A DNA stretch of 64,000 nucleotides, taken from Spiroplasma sabaudiense Ar-1343 (GTDB lineage: Bacteria; Bacillota_I; Bacilli_A; Mycoplasmatales; Mycoplasmataceae). The notes below the pieces were generated by a model. The model searched no databases, had not been told where the DNA came from, and saw nothing but the letters and a program-made list of their open reading frames with translations. The first letter of the stretch is position 1. Each line of letters starts with the position of its first letter. The position numbers were made by a program, and so were the translations under genes. This document shows, one piece after another, positions 58,675 to 63,004 of the stretch. Location of the stretch: assembly GCF_000565215.1 (NCBI RefSeq), contig NZ_CP006934.1, positions 496,001 to 560,000 of the forward strand, written 5' to 3'.

Positions 58675-60099
58675 TTATAGTTCCTCAATAAATTTAGTAA
58701 TTTTATTTTTAATTGGTGACATTTTAATAATTGCATCTTCACAAATTAATTTGTAGCTATCATATTTTTTATTGTCTCTTGCAAAGTCCATTTTTGTAAT
58801 AATTTGATATTCTTTTTCAATCGAATCAAAGTTATTTACTAATCGGTGTTTAATACAGAAACCAACCTTTGGAATCAAATTTGAAAAATTAAGAGCCATT
58901 GCGAATATTTGTTCGATTGCTACTTCGGCTTCGAATAAATCTCAATGTTTAATTCCTGAACGGTATTTACTTATAAGAGTTTTAAAAATGTCTTTATAAT
59001 CATTTAAAATTCCTGAATCTGCGTTAATTAGATCTTCAATTTTATTTACAAATTTAACATCAGCTTCATTGGTAAAGTCAATATAATCAGAAATACTGGC
59101 TTTGACTTCCCCTAGTTTGTAATCAAGAGAATTATCAATTAATGCACTGTAAGTAATTTTAAATTTTTTATACATGTCATTATTTACATTTTTCCCCTTT
59201 TCATAAATTTTTATAACCATTTGAAGAAATTTTTCACATTTCTTTTTTAATTCAATATCAAAGTCTTCTAAATCCGAAATTTCCTTGGTTAGATTAATGT
59301 TTATTCCATCAACTTTGGTCAATTCATCTCAGTGATTTTTTTCTGCAGCCATTCTTTCGTTGAAATTTTTAAAATCACTGATTGGGCCAATATCCTTTAA
59401 CTGATCTTTATCATTTGAGTTTTGGTTTCTTGAAACTTTTTTAGCTTTAGATGATTTAGCCTTTAATTCTTCGGTTGTCATCAATTTTTTTGTTGGTAAA
59501 ATATAATCTGATTTGAAAATACTTACTGGATCTTTTGCAACAAAATTAACTAATATAACAGTCTTAACAAATAAAGTTATCGAAATTATAAAGACTGGTG
59601 TTAGCAATAGATATGAAACTACTAATTTAATCATATTATTTATGTCAACTTCTTGTAATAAAGCTGGAATTCATGCAAATTTGAAAATTTCTGAATAATA
59701 AGCTATTTGTTGATTCCAATTAATAACTTGAAAAATTGAAATCAAACTTAATAATGCAATTACTATTAGTATCGATGAAGTAAAGGTTATATTTTTAGCT
59801 AATTTACTCTCTAAATCATGATCCATATCTTCTCTTGACTTGTCTTTTTGATTTATTTTATATAATAATCCTATAAAAACAAAGAGAGCTGCAGCAATTA
59901 TCAAAGGCGCTAAAAGTAGGTCAAAAATTAATTTAAAAATCTCATAGTTCATTTCATTTATTTTGATGAAATTAATTAAGTCAAAAGAAAAAAAGAATAA
60001 ACTAGCTAAAATAGATAAAAATATTCCCTGAACAAGAGCTAAAATAAAAATACTCTTTGCATTTTTATTTTCAAATGCTCAAATATATTTTTTTTGCAT
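58675..60099 (-). CDS. Hypothetical membrane protein, 474 aa
   Basis: ATG 60099 with AGAGAGG upstream on the minus strand. The frame passes TGA-Trp codons to TAA 58675-58677. Four membrane segments are visible near residues 16-35, 58-80, 100-125 and 150-175. A large cytoplasmic-looking helical domain of about 290 residues follows, rich in Lys/Asp/Ile (LEDFDIELKKKCEKFLQMVIKIYEKG; KFVNKIEDLINADSG). No family is recognised. Together with the upstream gene at 60132 and the downstream coaE it may form an operon. Confidence 0.72.
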
Positions 60100-60131: not shown

Positions 60132-61175
60132 CTATTTTTTATTGGTTTGTCTCGTTAAATCGCCAATTGCAATTTTGATACCTTTAATATTTATCGCAAA
60201 ATTAATTAGTTGAATCTGTTCTTTCCTTAACAACAACGGCTTAAATATAAAACGATTATTTTCATTACTATCTTCCTCGCTCAAAATTACTCGATGATTT
60301 GGATGTAAGATACTTGGAATTTTGTCTGTGTTGATTCTATTATTTTGAATATAATCAAATAAGGGTCTAAATTCGCCCTTTCCAGGACCCAAGTTAATAA
60401 ATCCAATAGCTAAACTTGGATCAACAACCATCAAAGATAATAAAGAAATTTTTGACTTGTCATCAACAAAGTTTCCTGTCATTTGATTATTCAATAAAAA
60501 GCTTTCTTCTTCAAAATCAGAAATTTTAAATATTTTCATAAAATTATTATTTACTAACTGGTGAAAGTATAATTCAATGTATCCAAATTCTTGGTTTTCA
60601 AAATCTTCTTCCGAAATTAAGATAATTTTTTCATCACCCAAATTAGAATTTTCCTCATACCGATCGATAAATTTTGATAAATCAGCAAAAAGTTGACTTG
60701 TAAATAATGAATCATATAATTCAAAAAGTACGTAATTAAGGATTTGAAGTAAGTTATGTTTGAGGTCAAAGTTTAGTTCGTTTTCCAAAATATCTAAAAC
60801 ACAAAAAACTTCTTTAACTTGTTTAACTTTAAAGCGGTAATCACCATTTAGAACAGATATTAAAAAGAAAAAATATCTTAAAAAAAGCAAATCAGAGCCG
60901 CTGAGTTCTGGTTGTTTCTTATTAATTATTTTTTCATCAATTATAAATCTTGCTTCTTGAGAAATTTTGTAAAATTGATGTTTAACCTCGTCACCATCAA
61001 AACTATCATCCTCTTCAAAAAGTAATTCTACCAAAGGTTTGTTCTCTAAATCGATTCTATATTTTTTATTAGTCTTAAAATTTACATAAGTATATCCGTC
61101 TTCATTAAGTCACTTTTTAATAAATTCTTCTGAAAAAATTAGTCCAGATTTTATAAATTTAATTTTTTTATCCAT
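60132..61175 (-). CDS. Hypothetical protein, 347 aa
   Basis: ATG 61175 with AGGAGG eight bases upstream on the minus strand; the stop is TAG 60132-60134. A TGA at codon 22 is Trp, so a standard-code reading loses the first 47 residues. The protein is soluble and acidic, with helical segments (SDLLFLRYFFFLISVLNGDYRF; HNLLQILNYVLFELYDSLF) and a C-terminal mixed region (HPNHRVILSEEDS; NRFIFKPLLLRKEQIQLINFAI). No signal peptide or known motif. It lies 33 bases before the membrane-protein gene. Function unknown. Confidence 0.72.
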
Positions 61176-61549: not shown

Positions 61550-63004
61550 TTATATGATTAGTACTTTTTCAAAATTATTATACAATTTACTTTTTTCTCC
61601 GTATTGATTTTTATAACTATTTAACTGTTTCTCATTATCAAAAAGAAAAGTTTCAATAATTTCATTATTTGTAAAATCATACAAAGCCATTACAATAGTT
61701 GAACTAGCGGTTGGAATAATTTTAAATTCAGAATCTTCTGTTTTATTGAAAGCATCTGCATAAAGATAAATTTCTAAAGGAATTTGTTGATAAATTATTT
61801 CAATATTATTTAAATCTAATTTTTTACATTCCTCTAACATTTTTTTAATGTTTTCATCTGATTCTCTTGGATGTGGCTTAAATCAAATTGTAAACTGATT
61901 TTCACCATGATTGTCTTTGATGTATTCACTAATTGTCTGTATTGCAATTGCGCTATTTTTAATTGAAGAATTTTCTCCCATTTTTCCTCCGCTATAAACA
62001 AAGTTTAATCCCGGATTTGCTTTTGGCATTTTAGAATCATCTAATATAAAAACCTTTTTAAATGTTTCCATTGCTCTTAAATTATCTCAACTTTTGACCG
62101 CTTGACCAATTCCGGCCCCAACTGAAGAAAAAGTATTTCTTTGTTGTCAAAAATTATGAGAATCATAAAAGTGAACATCACTTATGGATCACGAATTTAT
62201 ATATCTAACATTATAAGAGTTTTTAGCTGTCATTAACGGGAAAAATTTATTAATAAACTTTTGATTTTTTGATTTTGGATCATATTCTCCTTGAAACATT
62301 TTTAGAATTTCTTCATCGATTTCAGCTTTTTTTTCATTTGATAAATAAATCAAATCATTGAAGATTGATTCTGAAATAGTATTATGATAGGTTCCATCAG
62401 TCATTAAAGTCATAATTTCAACGTTTTCTAATGATTCACTCAAATTAGTAAAATTACTTCCTCTAACGTTTCCGCACATGGCATAATCATCTGTAAATAA
62501 ATTAAGCTTTGTAATATTAGAATCCTTAGTCTTCATTGTATTCAAAGCCTCTTGAATTATTCATGACTCCATTTTTTCGGTTGAATTTTCTAAATACTCA
62601 ATGTGAATATTGCTGTATTCATTTTTCAATTCTTCAATATCTAATTGATTTCTTCCTAAAGTATTATTGTCATCAATTTGATCACTTATGTATATAACAA
62701 TTTGGCGGTCTTTGAATTTTTCAGCTTCAGTTATAGCGCTTGTAAAGGCTTGAACACCTAAAGCAGCTCCAGCTCTTGAAATATAATAAAAGGTTCCGGT
62801 ATTAATCTGAGCCTCTTCTTGCAATTTTATAGTTTTTAAATAATTATTGATTCCATCATGATCATCTAGCATAACTTTCTCAGCTTCAAATTTATAACGG
62901 TCATTTTCATTAATTATTTTGAACCGATCTTGACAGGCAACAACCGACAAGGTTGAACTAGTACTTAGACTAAATGCTGCTAGCATTATTAATAATTTTT
63001 TCAT
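61550..63004 (-). CDS. Lipoprotein with GT80-type sialyltransferase fold, 484 aa
   Basis: ATG 63004 with GAGAGATT upstream on the minus strand; TAA 61550-61552; TGA codons are Trp. The signal peptide is a lipoprotein type (SVVAC, Cys 24). The rest follows the two-Rossmann (GT-B) plan of GT80 sialyltransferases such as Pasteurella PmST1. There is an NIHIEYLEN strand, the general-base motif TDG (residues 202-204), a strand LNFVYSGG where PmST1 has its FIFTG segment, FKPHPR with HP at 378-379, IPLEIYLY with the ribose-binding Glu at about 411, and TASSTI with Ser 434-435. Order and spacing agree with PmST1 Asp141, His311, Glu338 and Ser355/356. Predicted to act outside the cell, tethered to the membrane. 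The PmST1 gate Trp270 seems absent, so donor and activity are uncertain. Confidence 0.75.

Follow-up and report, generated by a model that had tools for sequence, protein, structure and literature searches.

A surface lipoprotein gene of Spiroplasma sabaudiense with a predicted GT80-like glycosyltransferase domain

The window, by which we mean the whole 64,000-nucleotide stretch analysed here, comes from a genome of 1,075,953 bases in a single contig and contains a complete minus-strand gene of 485 codons counting the stop; five of these codons are TGA, which code 4 translates as tryptophan. The span given to this open reading frame in the initial annotation stands, with the strand now set to minus by translation with code 4. 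The gene and its features are as follows, with the basis of each in brackets:

61550 to 63004, minus strand: complete gene for a surface lipoprotein of 484 aa, whose GT80-like GT-B domain covers approximately residues 63-484 (open reading frame, translation, fold, orthologues)
62933 to 63004, minus strand: lipoprotein signal peptide, residues 1-24, with lipid-attachment Cys24 (NCBIfam NF038029 and lipobox VVAC)
62486 to 62488, minus strand: Asp173, a nearly invariant acid of the N-terminal Rossmann half (alignment)
62393 to 62401, minus strand: T-D-G motif, residues 202-204, with Asp203 as putative general base, counterpart of PmST1 Asp141 and MhPST Glu153 (conservation, model, global hhalign)
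61979 to 61999, minus strand: VYSGGKM loop, residues 336-342, counterpart of GT80 FIFTGTTTW without the gate Trp (alignments)
61865 to 61879, minus strand: K-P-H-P-R, residues 376-380, with His378-Pro379 as HP motif, putatively binding the CMP phosphate (conservation, PF07388, model)
61772 to 61774, minus strand: Glu411, putative ribose-binding Glu, counterpart of PmST1 Glu338 and MhPST Glu323 (conservation, model)
61697 to 61702, minus strand: Ser435-Thr436, putative phosphate-binding S/T-T motif, counterpart of PmST1 Ser355-356 and MhPST Ser339-Thr340 (conservation, model)

The gene lies 11 bases downstream of a Y-family DNA polymerase gene (IMS domains), and the same genes flank it in the genus's other two genomes, whose orthologues share 54% identity with the window protein. 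Downstream lie two further minus-strand genes (60132-61175 and 58675-60099) whose products are conserved across the three genomes of this genus and matched nothing in a Pfam search at E 0.01. In other lineages the neighbours are unrelated housekeeping genes (rnhB-type, truB-type, AAA ATPase, leucyl-tRNA synthetase), and no sugar-handling partner or operon was found beside the gene, either in its own genome or in the neighbourhoods examined in other lineages. Furthermore, the collections searched gave no phage or plasmid location for it. The lipoprotein gene is a stand-alone gene.

Counting matches that extend past the signal peptide, we found the protein family in 31 of the 320 genomes of the order, spanning three families of the order with a fragment in a fourth, and no full match outside the order appeared among 392 genomes sampled evenly across the phylum. 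Short profile matches in many spiroplasma-group genomes cover the signal peptide only and were not counted. The family is under purifying selection, with dN/dS of about 0.1 (0.11, 0.10 and 0.09 in three close pairs). In the tree, copies from the window's own family (f1) cluster together, and the f3 and f7 copies interleave. Two genomes, G060 and G111, carry two paralogues each (L068 1467-3113, L069 16189-17658, L023 and L028) that pair across genomes in the tree, which points to a duplication before the species split. One further copy (L047, G076:C2:732725-734065) is interrupted in frame by two TAA codons within the N-terminal half, stays open in the C-terminal half, and is probably a gene in decay.

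Residues 1-24 match the NCBIfam profile of Mollicute lipoprotein signals (NF038029, LP_plasma) over its cut-off at E 1.9e-6, and the lipobox reads VVAC with the cysteine at position 24, bearing out the lipoprotein signal that had been read from the sequence. The signal is of the spiralin type and, taken with the use of code 4, suits a Spiroplasma. Membrane attachment varies in the family and is provided by a lipobox, by an N-terminal hydrophobic anchor, or by a signal combined with a C-terminal transmembrane helix and a basic tail; judging from these topology signals, the catalytic domain is predicted to lie outside the cell for all anchor types. That three types of anchor lead to the same placement argues that the outside location matters. 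The C-terminal helix with its basic tail is found in most members of one subfamily (L024, L051-L053, L055-L057, L060, L071), which is almost invisible to Pfam, with no family call over cut-off.

The active-site motifs are kept throughout the alignment: Asp203, Gly204, His378, Pro379 and Glu411 are present in 32 of 32 homologues, and the column pair 435-436 holds Ser/Thr followed by Thr/Ser in all 32, at overall identities to the window protein as low as 14%. TDG at 202-204, KPHPR at 376-380 and IPLE at 408-411 lie where the initial annotation had located them. The serine motif is likewise present, and we place it at S435-T436 instead of 434-435 because that column pair is the conserved one. 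Previous studies have described the GT38 and GT80 counterparts of these residues as the base, a phosphate-binding His, a ribose-binding Glu and a phosphate-binding Ser/Thr (PMC5517516, PMC2169525), and mutagenesis has established the D/E-D/E-G and HP residues as catalytic (PMC2169525, PMC5517516). In the predicted structure T-D-G forms the loop linking strand 195-202 to helix 205-218, the HP motif follows strand 371-376, Glu411 stands at the start of helix 410-415 and Ser435-Thr436 at the start of helix 436-444, strand ends and helix starts being where the residues of a GT-B active site would be expected. From this secondary-structure position and the fold match described below, we infer that the motif residues share one cleft.

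The proposed GT80-type order and spacing also hold, with 175 residues between D203 and H378 compared with 170 between D141 and H311 of PmST1, and with HP, Glu and Ser/Thr in the same order in 32 of 32 homologues. When the mature sequence is shuffled 20,000 times, 25 of the shuffles contain the motif set at loosely GT80-like spacing, which taken alone would be weak evidence across a whole genome; the observation is settled because the motifs are invariant in 32 of 32 diverged homologues and because of the fold result.

Three features set the family apart from GT80. The first acid of D/E-D/E-G is replaced by T, S, A or G, with the second acid and the glycine kept in 32 of 32; in PmST1 the first Asp of DDG points toward the core (PMC2169525). 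The VYSGGKM loop aligns as the counterpart of FIFTGTTTW, in agreement with the likeness of LNFVYSGG to FIFTG noted earlier, and the gate Trp is indeed replaced, TGTTTW of GT80 being SGGKM or SGxLM in the family. Finally, the GT80 strand motif DHASLPTL is absent from the family. These differences suggest that the donor-sugar and acceptor sites may differ from those of GT80, with the CMP site kept.

Sequence profiles alone do not place the protein in GT80. The profile search against Pfam PF11477 (GT80) proposed with the initial annotation returned no match, whether in the window protein (E 10), in its own genome or in 14 family members (E 1), and no GT80 entry came up when the PDB was searched by sequence, using the single protein as well as profiles A1 and A3. 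The sole Pfam family seen is the polysialyltransferase family PF07388, which matches residues 357-439 (about 83 residues) at E 4.3e-7 with 30.2 bits against a cut-off of 23.3, and which was matched in 8 of the 14 members. A scan of genome contigs yielded one Flavobacterium locus, an open reading frame of Flavobacterium sharifuzzamanii (L061, 5188-6300) with a KPHPR...PIEFF stretch at 37% identity over about 49 residues; it sits amid glycan-type transferases, is polysialyltransferase-like, and has no solved relative by sequence search.

GT80 is reached solely by fold comparison and by direct profile-profile comparison, for which we used three GT80 sequences taken from, and checked against, PDB entries. 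In hhalign the family aligned to GT80 with a probability of 94.9% (local) and 96.5% (global), and the score of 66.5 compares with a best of 21.9 among 150 column shuffles and with 18.4 for the reversed alignment. The unguided global alignment paired Asp203-Gly204 with the GT80 DDG, His378-Pro379 with HP and Glu411 with its Glu counterpart in GT80. At this level of comparison the family appears linked to GT80 by remote homology, without sequence-profile membership. The lipoprotein is thus GT80-like and formally outside GT80 by sequence, since PF11477 is silent, the gate Trp is absent and the first acid of D/E-D/E-G is replaced.

The AlphaFold model of the window protein, computed from an alignment of 19 diverse homologues, has a pLDDT of 79 and a pTM of 0.83, and the only segments of low confidence are 1-47, 179-182 and 276-295. 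Foldseek against the PDB listed GT80 sialyltransferases first, in ranks 1-8 with a best E of 1.7e-9, then the GT38 polysialyltransferase in rank 9 (6e-7), with ordinary GT-B enzymes starting at 4.6e-5. VIA-align likewise gave GT80 at ranks 1-21 (Z 17.7-20.7 over 341-364 residues), followed by GT38 (Z 12.3-12.5) and other GT-B enzymes (at most 11.9); identity to GT80 in the aligned structures is 12-17%. A second model, of the 633-aa L071 protein from a distant subfamily, was built from a separate nine-row alignment and returned GT80 at ranks 1-17 (Z 14.5-17.5), GT38 at Z 10.0-10.3 and others at no more than 8.7. Two independent alignments thus lead to the same family, and the two-Rossmann fold that had been anticipated is recovered, as the best solved matches are all GT80, which are two-Rossmann GT-B enzymes, by a wide margin. 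Kdo transferases and TagF-type enzymes, other GT-B families using CMP- or CDP-linked donors, were not among the fold matches listed, and comparison with a viral structure library gave no near match. Collectively, the predicted structures resemble GT80 much more closely than any other PDB entry.

NeuB was absent from all 27 family-bearing genomes searched, and no NeuA was found in these 27 either, all NeuA-like (PF02348) matches looking IspD-like; control genomes were matched in both searches. The PF02348 match in the window's own genome was rejected as a CMP-sialate synthetase, being IspD by Pfam (E 1.7e-41), as were the matches in related genomes, whose sequences read as IspD-like. Without NeuA and NeuB, the donor would not be made by the cell via the known nonulosonic pathway, so that a sialic-type donor would be external or the sugar would be another of the CMP type. 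We know of no supply of CMP-sugars outside cells, and sialic acid is scarce in arthropod hosts. GT80 enzymes work in reverse, with sialidase and trans-sialidase activity (PMC10795189), so a tethered enzyme with CMP could take sialic-type sugars off the glycans of the host and place them on the surface of the bacterium.

We consider it probable that the gene encodes a glycosyltransferase tethered to the cell surface, whose fold and catalytic set are those of the bacterial sialyltransferases, with GT80 as the nearest group. None of the refuting conditions named in the initial annotation that we could check went against this. It would most likely be an active, CMP-dependent, inverting glycosyltransferase or trans-glycosylase at the cell surface. 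Under this hypothesis, the lipid on Cys24 would anchor the GT-B domain outside the cell, and the C-terminal Rossmann half would hold CMP, free or as CMP-sugar, via Lys376, His378, Glu411 and Ser435/Thr436. Asp203 of the N-terminal half would act as the base in an inverting sugar transfer, and His378 would stabilise CMP as it leaves. The computation shows the fold, the conservation of the residues, the signals of an extracellular topology, purifying selection and the lack of NeuA and NeuB, whereas enzymatic activity, the use of CMP as nucleotide, a sialic-acid-like donor and an acceptor on the bacterial surface are what we infer here. The sugar would most likely come from the host or the surroundings, given a cell with no known route of nonulosonic-acid synthesis or activation: it may be CMP-sialic acid or a similar sugar released by lysed cells, or the reverse reaction may pass sialic acid from host glycans to CMP and on to the bacterium's own glycans or proteins. 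Against this reading count the missing gate Trp and DHASLPTL, so that donor-sugar and acceptor contacts may differ from GT80, the identity of only 12-17% to GT80 in aligned structures, the lack of a sugar-handling partner beside the gene, and the scarcity of sialic acid in arthropods and of any known CMP-sugar supply outside cells. A bolder version, which we offer tentatively, is a surface trans-glycosylase with bound CMP as cofactor that moves host sialic-type sugars onto the wall-less cell, giving it a sugar coat without sugar-nucleotide synthesis of its own; the family would then represent a branch of the GT80 fold that acts outside the cell, extends across the order and has not been described before.

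The strongest alternative, clearly less probable than the sialyltransferase-group reading but a real possibility, is that the protein is a working transferase from this superfamily, dependent on CMP or CDP, but with another donor, for example an ulosonic acid (Kdo-like or other) or a CDP-alditol, which the cell would obtain from its environment or export by an unknown route. The CMP-binding residues are kept and what is lost (gate Trp, first acid, DHASLPTL) lies on the sugar and acceptor side, the 27 family-bearing genomes have neither NeuA nor NeuB, and beta-Kdo transferases have an HP motif too (PMC5517516). However, the fold and the D-to-HP spacing of 175 against 170 fit GT80 and not the other families. 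CMP-Kdo synthetase is likewise absent, provided that PF02348 covers it too, as would be expected.

It is rather unlikely that the protein is a non-catalytic surface binder of glycans or nucleotides derived from a sialyltransferase, for example an adhesin for host sialosides. An extracellular position with no known donor and the absence of synthetase genes would suit such a binder, but base, HP, Glu and Ser/Thr, invariant in 32 of 32 homologues down to 14% identity, would be needless for mere binding. Very improbable is the enzyme of mycoplasma surface-protein hexosylation from exogenous oligosaccharides, a system that is extracellular, uses an oligosaccharide instead of a nucleotide sugar and has no known gene (PMC12453214); M. 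genitalium and JCVI-Syn3A hexosylate, whereas the family is missing from most sampled genomes (present in 31 of 320), and the fold indicates CMP-type donors. Finally, an ordinary lipoprotein of the variable kind might show such short motifs by chance, as the motif set alone would allow (about 0.1% of shuffles); the fold of both models refutes this, the profile-profile score and the motif invariance speak against it, and its probability is close to negligible.

Sugar-nucleotide transferases normally act where the nucleotide sugar is produced, and here a sialyltransferase-like family sits outside wall-less cells for which no route to sialic acid is known. Activity of the enzyme would mean that such bacteria coat or edit surfaces using borrowed sugars. 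The gene offers a concrete test case for glycosylation outside the cells of Mollicutes, a process whose enzymes are unknown (PMC12453214), and with this family the GT80 fold reaches an order of bacteria missed by PF11477.

Compared with known systems, the family shares with GT80 (PmST1/PM0188, Photobacterium damselae 2,6ST 4r83/4r9v, JT-ISH-224 2z4t, and 2zwi) the GT-B fold with its chain order across some 350 residues, at Z up to 20.7, together with the Asp base, HP motif, ribose Glu, Ser/Thr pair and D-to-HP distance. It differs in having T/S/A/G-D-G in place of DDG, in lacking the gate Trp (PmST1 Trp270), DHASLPTL and a PF11477 match, in a genome without sialic-acid synthesis, and in an identity of only 12-17%. 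GT38 enzymes belong to capsule machinery in the cytoplasm. With GT38 (PF07388; MhPST 5wc6/5wcn) the family shares the PF07388 match over cut-off at residues 357-439, the CMP-site residues and the mechanism class, whereas the structural Z reaches only 12.3-12.5 and the D-to-HP distance is 125-138 in GT38 against 175 here; published spacings are about 170 for GT80, some 50 more than in GT38/GT52, and 125-138 for GT38 (PMC5517516, PMC2169525). Mycoplasmas hexosylate their surface proteins from exogenous oligosaccharides by an unknown enzyme (PMC12453214, PMC4657876), a system alike in being extracellular, in wall-less bacteria and without an identified enzyme, and unlike in using a hexose donor instead of a sialic-type one and in occurring in every species tested, in contrast to a patchy family. 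The family is too patchy for the hexosylation enzyme and is instead a candidate for a separate extracellular glycosylation.
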